Assembly (NCBI RefSeq): GCF_021023085.1
Contig: NZ_PGCK01000006.1
Location: forward strand, 62,001-126,000
Direction: 5' to 3'
Source: Methanooceanicella nereidis
Lineage (GTDB): Archaea > Halobacteriota > Methanocellia > Methanocellales > Methanocellaceae
Length of the DNA stretch: 64,000 bases
Position 1 is the stretch's first letter. Every line of letters begins with the position of its first letter. Below are positions 52,445-60,741 of the stretch, piece after piece. A program made the position numbers and the translations under genes. The notes beneath the pieces were generated by a model that was given only the letters and a program-made list of their open reading frames with translations, was not told the origin of the DNA and ran no database searches.

Positions 52445-52768
52445 TTACCTGATCGGCCATTCGCATATTAGCTTACCGTTAAGTAATTTTTCTAGCGCCA
52501 GGTCAACGTCGCCTTCAACACCCTTGTAGACCATCATACCGTTTCCCAGTAAAGTGTTCAGCGAGTCATCATCTATGTCGTAAGTAATGAGATGCGTTAC
52601 GCCTCGCTCTCGAACGACGTCGGTCGCAGGCCTGCATTCTTCACTTTCATCCTTAAATGTCAGCTTGCCCGCTATCTGGTTGTCCCGGATATAGAAAAGA
52701 ACGAACTCCGATGCCTTGTCGAAGTTTTCTGATATCATATCATTATACTTCGGTATGCAGACCTTCAT
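52445..52768 (-). CDS. MTH1175/NifX-like protein (dinitrogenase Fe-Mo cofactor domain)
   Basis: A 107-residue single-domain protein of the NifB/NifX C-terminal family: MKVCIPKYNDMISENFDKAS, FVLFYIRD and RGVTHLITYDI. Members bind metal-cluster intermediates or regulate them. There is no nif cluster here, so it is one of the orphan copies common in methanogens. A second one is at 60391. ATG 52768 follows GGTGGG. Confidence 0.85.
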   Translation of the reverse strand: MKVCIPKYNDMISENFDKASEFVLFYIRDNQIAGKLTFKDESEECRPATDVVRERGVTHLITYDIDDDSLNTLLGNGMMVYKGVEGDVDLALEKLLNGKLICEWPIR

Positions 52769-53234
52769 AATACCCACCCAATAAAATATTTGGATAATTT
52801 AATAATAATACTTTGGCCCGGATAAGTGGATATGATCAGAATCAATAAATAGATAGATTGAATCATAATGAACATACAGACATCCATGATCGGATTCTGG
52901 AAAGGCCCATTTTCACAGCAATATTACCAGTATAGACTGCCAAAAAATGATTTAAGGTTACATACCACCAATTTTAGAACGTACAATAAGGTCGAATAGA
53001 CCTATTAATTACTATTGGAAAATGACCGCCGCATACAAGATACGCAAAAACACTTTTCTCGACATCATAAAAGAGTTACATCGGCCATCTCTACGGGTAC
53101 TGAACACTGATAAAAGCTTACTATTGGCCTTGCTATAAAATTATTTTAAACCCGGACTTTCAATTTTTTTTAATGATTATTTGATGTTAAAAATAATAAA
53201 TTACTGTACTTTTTATAAAAATGGTGAATGATAA
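52769..53234. other. Intergenic region between NifX-like and FAS1 genes
   Basis: About 465 bases. A small hairpin AGGTC-GAATA-GACCT lies near 52989-53003. A 38-codon frame at 53023 (starting MTAAYKIRKNTFLD) is present but lacks a ribosome-binding site and is not called. TACTTTTTATAAA near 53207 is a TATA candidate for the FAS1 gene. Confidence 0.35.
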
Positions 53235-54323
53235 ATGGCAGATATTAGAAAGATACTGGCAATACTCATATTATTGACACTGATATTTGGGTTTGCTTTA
53301 CCGGTTATTGCCCAGACGTCGGTGCAGAATACTATGCTCGAAAATCTGGCGGCCAATAAAGAATTCTCCACCCTGGCTACAGCCATAAGAGCTGCAGGCC
53401 TGGATAAAGTATTGAGCGGAATGGAATCCTACACATTGTTCGCGCCGAACAATGCCGCGTTCGACAAGTTCCCGAAAGAATCGATCAGCGCCCTGGTAAA
53501 CGATAAAACAAAACTTGGCGAACTGCTGAAGTACCATGTCGTCCCGGGTAAATTGACTTACGCGGACCTCTCAAAAATGACAGAGATCAAGACTGTCGAC
53601 GGAAAGACATTGCCCATAGGCAGGCAGGACGGGATGGTCACTGTCGACGGAACAAAATTAATGGGACCGGGCATTGAAAGCAAGAACGGCATGATATACC
53701 CGATAAGCAACGTGATGACCCCGCCGGGCTTCGCTATGCCGCAGGTCGCAAGGTCCACCGGGATAGAGATGGGATGGCTTCCATGGTTGCTTGGTGCTCT
53801 TGGACTGGGATTGATCGCGCTGTACTTCTTGACCCGTGCCGGAAGAAAGGGTTATGAAGCTCCTGAAGCAGCATATGAAAAAGAGAGAGTAAAGGAGCGT
53901 GTAAAGCCCTGGTCGGAAGAGACGGAGAGAGCTGAAGAAACGATGAAGAGAGTCAAAGAGTCAGTCTCGGCTTACCGCGAGCCTTCGATATCCGATATCA
54001 CTAATATCGCCAGGAACCTCGAATTGCCGCTTGCAGGCGATTCGCTGGCAGGGCTGAATAAGCTCATCAGCAACGGCGTATTCAGCGATAAGCAGGATTT
54101 CCTTAGCTTCCTGGTAAAGAGCTATTTCCAAAACGACGTGGGTTCCATGATGGCAGGCGGTAAAGAGCCGGGCATATCCTCGATAATGGACATCATTGAC
54201 AAGACAGGGATAGCCAGAGGATTTTTGGATAGCGATATTAAGAAATACATAGTGCCGCTTTTAATGGCCGGGTTCACAGCAGTATACAATTACCTCCGGA
54301 AGCCAGCAGTTAAGCCGGCTTAA
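53235..54323 (+). CDS. Fasciclin (FAS1) domain membrane protein
   Basis: The 362-residue protein begins with a signal peptide (ILAILILLTLIFGFALPVIA). A FAS1 domain follows (about 30-160), with YTLFAPNNAAFDKFP and LLKYHVVPGKLTYADL. A membrane helix (WLPWLLGALGLGLIALYFLT) comes next, then a charged segment and a C-terminal helical domain of about 100 residues that would lie in the cytoplasm and ends in KPAVKPA. FAS1 domains act in cell adhesion. The combination with a cytoplasmic domain is unusual and suggests signalling or attachment to an inner component. Confidence 0.85.
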   Translation: MADIRKILAILILLTLIFGFALPVIAQTSVQNTMLENLAANKEFSTLATAIRAAGLDKVLSGMESYTLFAPNNAAFDKFPKESISALVNDKTKLGELLKYHVVPGKLTYADLSKMTEIKTVDGKTLPIGRQDGMVTVDGTKLMGPGIESKNGMIYPISNVMTPPGFAMPQVARSTGIEMGWLPWLLGALGLGLIALYFLTRAGRKGYEAPEAAYEKERVKERVKPWSEETERAEETMKRVKESVSAYREPSISDITNIARNLELPLAGDSLAGLNKLISNGVFSDKQDFLSFLVKSYFQNDVGSMMAGGKEPGISSIMDIIDKTGIARGFLDSDIKKYIVPLLMAGFTAVYNYLRKPAVKPA

Positions 54324-56098: not shown

Positions 56099-56872
56099 CT
56101 AAAATATCTTATGTATAAGATCCTTGATCTCCTTCACATAATCCTTATGCGTATGCGTGCCGTCACAGTATGGCTTGTTCCCCGACCTTCCGCAGCGGCA
56201 TAAAGTAACACGGTTCCTGGTCTCATACTTGAAACCCTCAGAAGATTCGAACGGTATTCCGCCTTTTAGCCATATAGGTCCAAGAGCTTCCTCTTTCGGG
56301 CCCTCTACAAGGCTGACGGATGGCACGAATTTAGGCTCGATAGGCTTCCCTGTCGTTTTATCCCACATCACGAGCCTTCCGGAAGGGCAATTACCGGCTA
56401 TCTTTATCGCAAGTTCCCTTATTTCAGGGTCATCTGTGAACTTGACAAGGTCCCAGATGCCTCCTGCCCTGTGACAGAAGCGTGCCATGGCGCAAAGCTC
56501 TGGAGCGTCGGTTAGATCAACGCCAGGCCCCGGTATCTTATTAGCCAGCTCAAGATATTTTTTACCGCTGGCCGATTCTGTGCCGTTAAAGCCGGTCTCG
56601 GTATGAGTACCGTCGCAGTACGGCTTGTTCTTTGACTGGCCGCAGCGGCAAAGTGCGTAGGTTTCCTGTACAGGGAACTCTTCACCTTTGCTCCATTCAA
56701 GGGGGACGCCGTGATCGTCAGTTACAATGATCTCCTTTGCCAGTGGCAGACCACCCGTAACAAGATAAGGCCCGTCCTTTGTCACAACGACTTTGACATT
56801 CTCCTTTTTCTGGACATCGGAAGAAGTTTGGACAACCTCCTGCCCGGTATAATCTTTTTTATCGTTGATCAT
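56099..56872 (-). CDS. Double CDGSH iron-sulfur protein
   Basis: The 257-residue protein has two CDGSH-type [2Fe-2S] motifs: CRCGQSKNKPYCDGTH (about residues 75-90) and CRCGRSGNKPYCDGTH (about 226-241), each C-x-C-x8-C-x3-H. Between them is a 100-residue region (CAMARFCHRAGGIWDLVKF and NCPSGRLVMWDKTTGKP) resembling the divergent iron-sulfur domain often fused to CDGSH in prokaryotes. It is a cytoplasmic redox or iron-sulfur trafficking protein. Confidence 0.9.
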   Translation of the reverse strand: MINDKKDYTGQEVVQTSSDVQKKENVKVVVTKDGPYLVTGGLPLAKEIIVTDDHGVPLEWSKGEEFPVQETYALCRCGQSKNKPYCDGTHTETGFNGTESASGKKYLELANKIPGPGVDLTDAPELCAMARFCHRAGGIWDLVKFTDDPEIRELAIKIAGNCPSGRLVMWDKTTGKPIEPKFVPSVSLVEGPKEEALGPIWLKGGIPFESSEGFKYETRNRVTLCRCGRSGNKPYCDGTHTHKDYVKEIKDLIHKIF

Positions 56873-57220: not shown

Positions 57221-58285
57221 ATGGCTGAAAGCTTAAGCAAATATTACTTTTCAACAAAAGATCTTGCGACCATCACAATACTGGGCGCCCTTGGAGGCGG
57301 TTTTTCTGTATATATGGGCTACATAATCGCCGAGATCTTTAACATCATGAAAGTATGGTTCCCGGTAGGCGAATCTCTAAGCGGCGTCCATTTGATATGG
57401 ATAGTGCTCGTGCTCGGCATCACTAATAAGAAAGGCAGCGGTGTTATGGCAGGATTGCTAAAGGGATGCGTAGAGTTCCTTATGGGCAGCCGGCTCGGCA
57501 TATTCGTCGTTGTCCTGTCATTGCTTGAGGGCCTGTTCGCCGAGCTGGGTTTCTGGCCTTTCAGGAAGTACAGGAAACTAGCATATATTATGGCGGGTGG
57601 CATCGGCACTGCATCCAACGTAGTGACTTTCCAGCTCATATCGCCGTTCCAGGACATGTCTCTCTTTGCGCTGGCCACCTTCATGGCATTCATATCCGGA
57701 GCAGTATTTGCCGGCATATTAAGCCTGGGCGTCGTCGACAGCCTGGAAGATGCGGGGATCCTGAGAAAGGAGAAGAACAAGAAGGAAGGGATACGCATCA
57801 CGGCTACCAAAGCCGCGGCTATCCTTGTCGGCCTGTCGATGATCATCATGGTCGGCTCTGTAGTATTTATGCCGCCGCAGCAAACGCCGGATCCATCAGT
57901 ACAGGACCCTGCAGCGACTCCCGTAGATGATAAAATGATGAAATTTACCGTTACGGGCAGTGTAAATAATGAAAAGGAATATAATTTCTACGATCATAAA
58001 GAACACTTTGTCGTAATGGAATCACAGGTCATATGCAACCCGCATAAACTAACGAACTATACAGGGCTGCCGTTAAAATTCATACTTGAGGATGCGGGAG
58101 TGAAACCCGAAGCCACAAAAGTGGATATCGTCGCCTGGGACAGTTACTATAACACATTCGATCTTTCAAAGGCGATGAGCGATGATGTCATTATGGTGGA
58201 CACTGGCGGGCAGCTCAAGATCATTGCCAATGGCTTAAGCCAGGAATACTGGGTCGGGATGATAAAGACGATAAGAGTATATTGA
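57221..58285 (+). CDS. YkoE/ECF-like membrane protein fused to a sulfite-oxidase-fold domain
   Basis: The 354-residue protein has two parts. Residues 1-215 form about six membrane helices (GALGGGFSVYMGYIIAEIFN; GSGVMAGLLKGCVEFLMGSR) like the S component of ECF-type vitamin or metal transporters (YkoE-like). Residues 240-354, on the outer face after a Pro-rich linker, have the molybdopterin-binding sulfite-oxidase-like fold: FTVTGSVNNEKEYNFYDHKE, NYTGLPLKFILEDAGVK, IVAWDSYYNTFDLSKAM. A cofactor-ligand cysteine appears to be missing. Probably it binds a ligand outside and passes it to the membrane part. An FmdE-like gene follows 12 bases later. Confidence 0.75.
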   Translation: MAESLSKYYFSTKDLATITILGALGGGFSVYMGYIIAEIFNIMKVWFPVGESLSGVHLIWIVLVLGITNKKGSGVMAGLLKGCVEFLMGSRLGIFVVVLSLLEGLFAELGFWPFRKYRKLAYIMAGGIGTASNVVTFQLISPFQDMSLFALATFMAFISGAVFAGILSLGVVDSLEDAGILRKEKNKKEGIRITATKAAAILVGLSMIIMVGSVVFMPPQQTPDPSVQDPAATPVDDKMMKFTVTGSVNNEKEYNFYDHKEHFVVMESQVICNPHKLTNYTGLPLKFILEDAGVKPEATKVDIVAWDSYYNTFDLSKAMSDDVIMVDTGGQLKIIANGLSQEYWVGMIKTIRVY

Positions 58286-58297
58286 GGTCGTGATATA

Positions 58298-58930
58298 TTG
58301 GATACCCCCTGGGAAAGCGAAATGAAAAAAGTCTTTTCGGACCTGAAGGAAAAATATGCTGTCAGCGGCCGCGCAGGACAATTCATAGATAAGGCGGTAC
58401 AATATCATGGATTTCCCGCCCCCGGTGTCATCCTGGGAGCTTATATGATAGACCTTGCGCTGGAAAAGCTCGACACCGGCCCCGATGAAAAGCTATTCGC
58501 CATAGCTGAAACAAGCAAGTGCCTTTCGGATTCCATCGGCATCATAACGGGCTGTACTCCGGGCAGCAGTAAATTTTTATTATTCGATACAGGCCGACTT
58601 TCGCTGGCGATAGGAAAAGACGATGGTACAGGCATTGCGAAATGCGTGCGAGCCTTTGTAGCGCACGAAAAAACCGAAGGATATCCCGCCTTAATGACAT
58701 GGTATTATAATGAGCCGGACAGTAAAAATGACCTTCCTGCTTTACTTGAGGATATTCTAAAGGCAGGCAGATCCATCCTGTTATGGGAATATGTCAATGC
58801 GCCGATCCCCCCGAAGGATCAAGACTGGAAACCGGCTTTTTGCATAAAGTGCGGCGAAATGATCCCTGATAAAAAGCTCGAGAACGGCCTGTGCAAGGCA
58901 TGCGCTACAGGTTCTTGTTATATTATTTGA
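58298..58930 (+). CDS. FmdE-like protein with C-terminal zinc ribbon
   Basis: A 210-residue protein of the FmdE family (named from the molybdenum formylmethanofuran dehydrogenase operon): YHGFPAPGVILGAYMIDLAL, ETSKCLSDSIGIITGCTPGS, FDTGRLSLAIGKDDGTG. A zinc ribbon (CIKCGEMIPDKKLENGLCKAC) follows near 182-205. FmdE-type domains bind metals or metal-cofactor complexes. The TTG start is supported by GTGAT four bases upstream. It is cotranscribed with the YkoE-like gene, suggesting a ligand taken up by that protein. Confidence 0.88.
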   Translation: MDTPWESEMKKVFSDLKEKYAVSGRAGQFIDKAVQYHGFPAPGVILGAYMIDLALEKLDTGPDEKLFAIAETSKCLSDSIGIITGCTPGSSKFLLFDTGRLSLAIGKDDGTGIAKCVRAFVAHEKTEGYPALMTWYYNEPDSKNDLPALLEDILKAGRSILLWEYVNAPIPPKDQDWKPAFCIKCGEMIPDKKLENGLCKACATGSCYII

Positions 58931-58951
58931 AAAGATCAAAAAGATTGAAAA

Positions 58952-58969
58952 GATGGCCTGGTAGCCATC
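58952..58969. terminator. Bidirectional hairpin between convergent genes
   Basis: GATGGC (58952-58957) pairs with GCCATC (58964-58969) around CTGGTA. T-rich sequence lies on the right and A-rich on the left, so it can serve both strands. Confidence 0.6.
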
Positions 58970-58979
58970 TTTACCTGTT

Positions 58980-59453
58980 TTATTCGATCTCGATCGTTAC
59001 GAGGCCGCCAACCCATGCGCCCTTTGACTCGCCTGGGATGACCGCTTTCAATGTCTTGTCTTCCTCGATAGCGATGATGGCGTCCTGGGATGCGGTGATG
59101 TTAGCTATCGGGAGCGACTTTGAGTAACCGTCAGCGCCGATCATTGTTGCGCTGGCTGCACCGCCCTTAAGCTTTGCGTCTTCCAGAAGTTTACTGTAGG
59201 ATACGCCGGTGTATGTCATCATAACACCATCTTTGCCTTCGACGGATATGGTCTTGGTCCCGTATGCGTTGAGGTCGGCCATCGTCAGGTCAAGCTGGTT
59301 GTCTACGTTCCCCTTGACCGTTAATACGACCGGCCCGGGCTCTGGCGTCGGTGTCGCGGCCGGAGTTGCCGTCGGCTGAGTGCAGCCGGAAATAGCGACT
59401 ATGAACGCGACCATTGTGATCAATAAAAGTATTGATTTTCCGTTTAGTTTCAT
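58980..59453 (-). CDS. Lipoprotein with sulfite-oxidase-like fold
   Basis: The 157-residue protein has a signal peptide with lipobox (AFIVAISGC), a short Pro-Thr linker and a domain (about 42-157) that aligns with the C-terminal domain of the YkoE-like protein: LTVKGNVDN, TYTGVSYSKLLEDA and AWVGGLVTIEIE have counterparts in VTGSVNN, NYTGLPLKFILEDA and YWVGMIKTIRVY. It has the molybdopterin-oxidoreductase fold without visible cofactor-binding cysteine, so it is likely a ligand-binding lipoprotein on the outer membrane face. It is convergent with the uptake genes. Confidence 0.8.
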   Translation of the reverse strand: MKLNGKSILLLITMVAFIVAISGCTQPTATPAATPTPEPGPVVLTVKGNVDNQLDLTMADLNAYGTKTISVEGKDGVMMTYTGVSYSKLLEDAKLKGGAASATMIGADGYSKSLPIANITASQDAIIAIEEDKTLKAVIPGESKGAWVGGLVTIEIE

Positions 59454-59736
59454 ATTATACCTCCCTTTGGAAAAGATTGGATAGTAATATTATGATATAA
59501 CGATATAAATGTAATGTTACTAAGAATGATTACATAGAAAAATGTAATAGATCCAGTAATGTTCGAATAAAATTAAAATATTAGTATGCATTCTGAAAAT
59601 CTTTAAAAAATTACAAGAATATTTATAAACTTTCTTCGGAAAACTTTTCATATTATCATTTTTTAGTTAGCTGATCCTGACATAATTCATATATAATACG
59701 TCAGATATTAAACAATTTATCTTAAAGGTGTGTCAG

Positions 59737-60264
59737 GTGGATCAAATAGAGATAATCATTAGAAATCTACAGTTATGGCCATTTTTCCTCATCATATCTT
59801 TTATTATCGGATTGGCGGCAGGAGCATACGCATTTCTTCTACATTTCATAAAAAATAAGTATGTAACATATAGTATTCCATTCGTATTGATCGCTATATG
59901 GTTATTATGGGAAGCAGCCCAGGAATATCCGGGGCCAATGCTCCCGCTCATAAACATTAGCGCATTTTTCCTGATATATCCTATGGCTGTGGTCGCGCTT
60001 TATCCTATTGCGGACTATTTTATCAAACCAAAGAACGGCTGGTTGATCGTGCTTATCGTAACAACTTTAGCCATGTTCACGAATTTTTTAGCAGGCTACG
60101 GGGAAGATGTCATACCTGTGATGACGGATGCACCTCCGACTTACCTGGACAATCTGATCAAAGGAGCTACGGGAATATTGAATTATATGACATATGGGAT
60201 GATTTTTTATATTATCATTATACTGATAGCTAAAATTTTTAAATTTAAAAAGAAGAGTGGCTAG
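59737..60264 (+). CDS. Membrane protein of unknown function
   Basis: A 175-residue protein with about five hydrophobic helices (FFLIISFIIGLAAGAYAFLL, SIPFVLIAIWLLWEAA, ISAFFLIYPMAVVALYPIAD, GWLIVLIVTTLAMFTNFLAG, YGMIFYIIIILIAKIF) and a basic C-terminus. No family is recognised. GTG 59737 is preferred because AAAGGTGTG precedes it. AT-rich DNA upstream has no other features. Confidence 0.65.
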   Translation: MDQIEIIIRNLQLWPFFLIISFIIGLAAGAYAFLLHFIKNKYVTYSIPFVLIAIWLLWEAAQEYPGPMLPLINISAFFLIYPMAVVALYPIADYFIKPKNGWLIVLIVTTLAMFTNFLAGYGEDVIPVMTDAPPTYLDNLIKGATGILNYMTYGMIFYIIIILIAKIFKFKKKSG

Positions 60265-60390: not shown

Positions 60391-60741
60391 TTAAAACCCG
60401 GTCTTCTGCACTTCCATCAGTTTTCCCGCCATATGATCTTTAAAGGCATCTTCTGCCGTACCCTCGGCCCCCATGAACACTTTGACTCCCCGGTCATGCA
60501 GTATGCTTTTCATACATGGCCCTATGCTTCCTGCCAGCACGACATTAACGCCATTATCTGCCAGGAAATCGGCAGCTTTCTTTTCGCCTTCCTCTGAAGG
60601 AACATTATGAAGAACGTCGACAGAAACTATCTTATCTTCCTCCGCTTCCAGGATAACGAAATATTCGCTCTTTGCAAAATGTTCCTTGACCGGCGATGAA
60701 AGACCTTCGGGAGATGTTATAGGTATCGCATACCTTGTCAT
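60391..60741 (-). CDS. MTH1175/NifX-like protein, second copy
   Basis: A 116-residue single-domain protein of the dinitrogenase iron-molybdenum cofactor family: YAIPITSPEGLSSPVKEHFA, LADNGVNVVLAGSIGPCMKS, LHDRGVKVFMGAEGTAEDAF. One cysteine (GPCM) is conserved in part of the family. No nitrogenase genes are nearby. ATG 60741 lies at a clear start. Confidence 0.85.
   Translation of the reverse strand: MTRYAIPITSPEGLSSPVKEHFAKSEYFVILEAEEDKIVSVDVLHNVPSEEGEKKAADFLADNGVNVVLAGSIGPCMKSILHDRGVKVFMGAEGTAEDAFKDHMAGKLMEVQKTGF

Follow-up and report, generated by a model that had tools for sequence, protein, structure and literature searches.

The closest described relative of the membrane protein studied here is YkoE of B. 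subtilis (PDB 5EDL), the S-component of the group I ECF transporter YkoEDC, whose thiamine contacts include Tyr46, Trp49 and Asp131, with Glu77 touching the pyrimidine (PMC5037267). Its outer domain, and the lipoprotein encoded nearby, share their fold and Pfam family with the sulfite oxidase (SO) family enzymes SorA, SoxCD and YedY/MsrP. The same fold is found in the periplasmic protein PruR (PDB 7KOS, 7RKB and 7KP2), which lacks the Mo-ligating Cys and binds reduced pterins via Tyr104 and Trp160, position 102 being Asn or Asp (PMC13259868). The means by which pterins pass through membranes are described as unknown (PMC13259868); work in C. elegans raises the question of how the Mo cofactor enters from outside (PMC9793310). 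In the literature searched, neither a molybdopterin transporter nor a YkoE/SO fusion has been described in prokaryotes.

Three genes occupy positions 57221-59453 of the window, by which we mean the whole 64,000-nucleotide stretch of DNA that was analysed. An earlier note on this DNA had placed all three correctly, and their features are as follows:

57221..58285, + strand: fusion of a YkoE-type ECF S-component and a PruR-like SO domain, 354 aa (PF09819 and PF00174)
57242..57772, + strand: S-component domain of the fusion, residues 8-184, six membrane helices
57803..57868, + strand: seventh membrane helix of the fusion, residues 195-216, from DSSP of the AF2 model and the sequence
57938..58282, + strand: SO-fold domain of the fusion, predicted to lie outside, residues 240-354, with Gln269 at the Mo-Cys position and Asp307, Tyr309 and Trp344
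58298..58930, + strand: FmdE-like protein with a C-terminal C4 zinc finger, TTG start (PF02663)
58980..59453, − strand: SO-fold lipoprotein, 157 aa, lipobox ISGC24 (PF00174)
58983-59327, − strand: SO domain of the lipoprotein, residues 43-157, with Lys74 at the Mo-Cys position

The FmdE-like gene follows the stop codon of the fusion gene after a gap of 12 bp, and the lipoprotein gene is convergent with both; thus cotranscription, as envisaged in the earlier note, is possible for the fusion and FmdE-like genes only and is excluded for the lipoprotein gene. The gene divergent from that of the fusion (56099-56872, − strand) encodes two CDGSH iron-sulfur domains in addition to a Fer4_19 domain. 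Other surrounding genes encode a membrane protein with a fasciclin domain (53235-54323, + strand), a membrane protein of no recognised family (59728-60264, + strand) and, on both flanks, small NifX/NafY-type proteins (PF02579, FeMo-cofactor-binding-like; 52445-52777 and 60391-60741, both − strand).

The fusion matched ABC_cobalt/YkoE (PF09819, E=2e-17) and Oxidored_molyb (PF00174, E=2e-5), and its AF2 model (pLDDT 80) consists of six helices with the fold of an S-component, a basic loop, a seventh helix and a beta domain. YkoE 5EDL was the best Foldseek match (E=6e-7) and was also recovered by sequence (E=3e-10); further Foldseek matches were to the S-components 4HZU_S and TmRibU, to SO enzymes and to the PruR-neopterin complex 7RKB (E=8e-4). 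The protein is a YkoE-family ECF S-component with an extra helix and an outer SO-fold domain. A Lys/Arg-rich loop precedes the seventh helix (positive-inside), which, as modelled, should put the C-terminal SO domain outside. With YkoEDC the fusion shares the sequence family and fold of the S-component and, at its ECF-linked relatives, the presence of adjoining dedicated motor genes; it differs in the added helix and outside domain, in altered thiamine contacts and, for the window copy, in lacking adjacent motor genes.

A paralogous fusion with 43% identity is encoded on another contig of the same genome (C2). The cluster there contains the motor components, a fused EcfA-EcfA ATPase (TIGR04520, 407 bits) and EcfT, together with two lipoproteins, one SO and the other double-SO, a CxxCH-SO protein and a PF01663 phosphodiesterase whose N-terminal part appears SO-like by eye. 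Clusters of this type were also found in two other Methanocellaceae genomes. Among 394 sampled genomes of the phylum the full fusion was restricted to Methanocellaceae, and a scan of named genomes identified carriers in Methanofastidiosa, in Hermod-, Heimdall-, Hod- and Thorarchaeota and in Chloroflexota. Where the sequence of an ECF-linked locus extends far enough, EcfAA is encoded downstream of the fusion (19 of 19 loci), as is EcfT (18 of 18), and at least one further SO-fold protein adjoins the fusion in 17 of 19. Uptake by the fusion and its matching lipoprotein, as the earlier note had proposed, is strongly supported because relatives of the fusion directly precede EcfAA and EcfT. SO proteins with the c-type heme motif CxxCH occur at Methanocella and Chloroflexota loci; these partners and the phosphoesterases at the loci fit a redox-active, phosphorylated ligand. 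At two Asgard loci a calcineurin-like phosphoesterase is encoded upstream of the fusion in place of the PF01663 phosphodiesterase (L060:7298-8887 and L066:7427-8974). A second ECF set, next to a Chloroflexota fusion locus (L101:14163-18558), comprises an S-component (PF12822), a CbiQ protein and an extracellular protein that is squalene-cyclase-like; it resembles a transcobalamin-type B12 system.

The arrangement seen in the window, with the fusion and FmdE-like genes in tandem and the lipoprotein gene convergent, recurred in Methanocella sp. PtaU1.Bin125 alone, so that the co-occurrence of the three genes extends to one other Methanocellaceae genome and was found nowhere else. The flanking genes differ between these two loci, and the three-gene block is therefore conserved as such. 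Both genomes also carry an ECF-linked copy. No ECF motor is encoded beside the window copy, and its contig yielded no CbiQ-family gene.

Used as a whole-genome query, the fusion retrieved the lipoprotein (E=1.4e-8), showing that the motif common to the two proteins reflects homology, and the AF2 models of both have the SO fold, in agreement with the common fold suggested earlier. The lipoprotein matched PF00174 (E=2.5e-9), and its model (pLDDT 84) matched SorA (1.7e-7) and PruR 7KOS (3e-7) in Foldseek and aligned to the PruR-neopterin complex 7RKB with TM 0.67/0.72 and rmsd 2.2. The molybdopterin Cys is indeed absent from both proteins: at the SorA Mo-Cys column the fusion has Gln269 and the lipoprotein Lys74. 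In contrast to the sulfite oxidase enzymes, these SO domains have neither the Mo-ligating Cys nor additional enzyme domains, and a Mo enzyme in the outer domains was ruled out for lack of a Cys at the Mo position. The window fusion does have a Cys272, three residues past Gln269, where a 63%-identical orthologue has Gln. Matches of the lipoprotein to fuculose aldolase (NCBIfam, PDB) were rejected as short chance matches.

The likeness to PruR is weak when taken from sequence search alone (E=0.01-0.5), but profile-profile comparison aligned the full length of PruR with E=1.7e-9, pairing Tyr104 with Tyr309 and Trp160 with Trp344. Here PruR chain numbering plus 19 aligns Asn102-Asp-Tyr104 with Asp307-x-Tyr309, and the C-terminal Trp of PruR was assigned number 160 by counting residues backwards from the end of the chain. 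Across 20 fusions the pterin-contact positions are kept almost without exception (Asp307 in 20/20, Tyr309 and Trp344 each in 19/20). The SO domains thus have in common with PruR the SO fold without a Mo-Cys, export and the Tyr104/Trp160 positions; PruR signals through DcpA and c-di-GMP, whereas here the SO domain is fused to, or encoded beside, an importer. Positions of the Tyr309/Trp344 type are general SO-fold features, and as aligned they point to a pocket of the pterin type but do not establish its ligand.

The membrane pocket was compared with that of YkoE at Tyr46, Trp49, Glu77, Gln95 and Asp131. All 20 fusions have His for Trp49, Gln for Asp131 and Ala, Ser or Gly for Tyr46; the pyrimidine-contacting Glu77 is kept in all 20 and is the sole invariant residue of the thiamine pocket, and the Gln95 position varies between Gln, Glu and Ala. 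The corresponding pocket residues of the window fusion include His57, Glu85, Glu103 and Gln138. The thiamine/HMP pocket of YkoE is thus not preserved in these fusions, and judged from the alignment this change would fit the loss of the thiazole half and the gain of another ring. Pterins, too, carry an aminopyrimidine. Since the pocket is altered but Glu77 is kept, the ligand is probably a pterin.

The FmdE-like protein matched PF02663 above the cut-off (E=2e-23), with a weak C4 zinc finger, and is closest to PDB 3D00 (4e-20), Syntrophus SYN_00638. The core metal ligands of FmdE are His15, His17, Cys19 and Cys55 (PMC2954224). In the window protein the core motif FHGHxC reads YHGFPA, so that His17 is replaced by Phe and Cys19 by Ala, the first and last ligands being retained, and the His/His/Cys/Cys site is incomplete. 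SYN_00638 has the same domain order and the same core ligand loss, and no core zinc is seen in 3D00 itself; the window gene differs in lying outside any formylmethanofuran dehydrogenase operon. FmdE is present at both window-type loci and at none of the ECF-linked fusion loci. It is a local Methanocella addition, and as a core part of the system it was ruled out by its absence from all other fusion loci. The earlier suggestion that it forms an integral handler of the ligand inside the cell is weakened by this absence and by the loss of two of the four core ligands. The closest FmdE paralogue in the genome adjoins a MOT1-like transporter (by eye), FwdB, FdhD and MoeA, surroundings that an orthologue shares in another genome; with the paralogue beside MOT1-like and formylmethanofuran dehydrogenase genes, a Mo/W link remains plausible. 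Two other FmdE-type genes were noted: a second FmdE core gene, flanked on either side by a ZnuABC-like metal ABC transporter set (L049:13385-13825), and a gene in the vicinity of Mo/W genes that joins an FmdE-like domain to a TsaA/TrmO-like one (L048:9136-9897).

We propose that the fusion acts as the substrate-binding S-component of an ECF importer, and that its outside SO domain and the SO lipoprotein would capture a small pterin-type ligand in the fashion of PruR and hand it to the membrane pocket of the fusion. ATP-driven import would require an EcfAA/EcfT motor, probably borrowed from the paralogous C2 cluster, and the FmdE-like protein may be a lineage-specific cytoplasmic partner, possibly tying the ligand to Mo/W enzyme assembly. 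There is good support for an ECF uptake variant that has capture domains like PruR. A pterin, which the earlier note had named among its candidate ligands, is the best guess from the PruR match and the most likely ligand, at about even odds, and we give the explanation as a whole a probability of roughly 0.5. Counting against a pterin importer are the lack of a motor beside the window copy and the absence of FmdE at every fusion locus not of the window type.

As a special case of this proposal, we tentatively consider a ligand that is the Mo/W cofactor itself, a precursor or a dinucleotide form, which the linked phosphodiesterase would trim outside the cell ahead of import. The system would then be the first prokaryotic importer of molybdopterin/tungstopterin, letting archaea and bacteria that lack MoaA and MoaC run Mo/W enzymes, a possibility that we regard as rather doubtful. 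MoaC and MoaA are both missing from 16 of the 17 carrier genomes outside Methanocellaceae, with Pterin_bind nonetheless found in 14 of the 17, and MoaC occurs in 96 of 228 Asgard genomes (42%) as background and in 0/10 carriers (naive p 0.004, from about three lineages only). Beside the transporter, at most a few kilobases away, genomes without MoaA/MoaC encode FwdA (L054), an aldehyde ferredoxin oxidoreductase (L060) or xanthine-dehydrogenase-type FAD and 2Fe-2S subunits with a 742-aa ORF resembling, by eye, a molybdopterin subunit (L103/L111); the FmdE family is likewise linked to Mo/W enzymes. However, the carrier lineages are few and the ten Asgard carriers are not ten independent cases, MoaA is present in one carrier (G404) and in the Methanocella genomes, and the PruR pocket is reportedly too small for Moco (PMC13259868). 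ThiC is also missing from the carriers that lack MoaA/MoaC, so auxotrophy alone cannot choose the ligand. MoaC was not found in the window genome, which is rated 100% complete; the idea that this organism is a molybdopterin auxotroph was dropped since it has MoaA and a MoaD-like gene, and the missing MoaC may be an assembly gap or a real loss.

Import of thiamine, or of HMP, its pyrimidine precursor, in the manner of B. subtilis YkoE is unlikely. YkoE is the best characterised relative of the fusion in sequence and fold, and ThiC is missing from all 17 carriers outside Methanocella, but ThiC is retained in the Methanocella genomes and the substituted contacts include the thiamine-stacking Trp49. 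No TPP riboswitch was found in the window or in a search of five loci from Methanocella and Methanofastidiosa, nor was any other riboswitch pointing to a ligand, and we know of no SO-fold thiamine binder. Somewhat less probable again is a metal or oxyanion complex (molybdate, tungstate or cobalt), as suggested by the Pfam name ABC_cobalt, the FmdE neighbour with the Mo/W link of its family, and His57/Glu85/Glu103 in the membrane pocket. The core metal site of that neighbour is incomplete, however, the Ni/Co S-components NikM/CbiM form a separate family, and the SO fold is, to our knowledge, a binder of pterins and not of bare metals. Least probable of all is uptake of heme or a different tetrapyrrole, in which the SO proteins would serve as hemophores: a CcsB-like heme-handling gene is divergent from the ECF-linked fusion in 3/3 Methanocella loci and SO proteins with CxxCH are encoded in Methanocella and Chloroflexota, but the non-Methanocella fusion loci have no CcsB-like gene, maturation of the CxxCH partner explains it sufficiently, and no heme-ligand pair is conserved across all SO-domain copies.

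A set of proteins here annotated as ‘molybdopterin-dependent oxidoreductase’ is unlikely to consist of enzymes. The ECF family described here, conserved in archaea and bacteria and equipped with PruR-like domains, provides a concrete candidate for pterin uptake, with defined genes.
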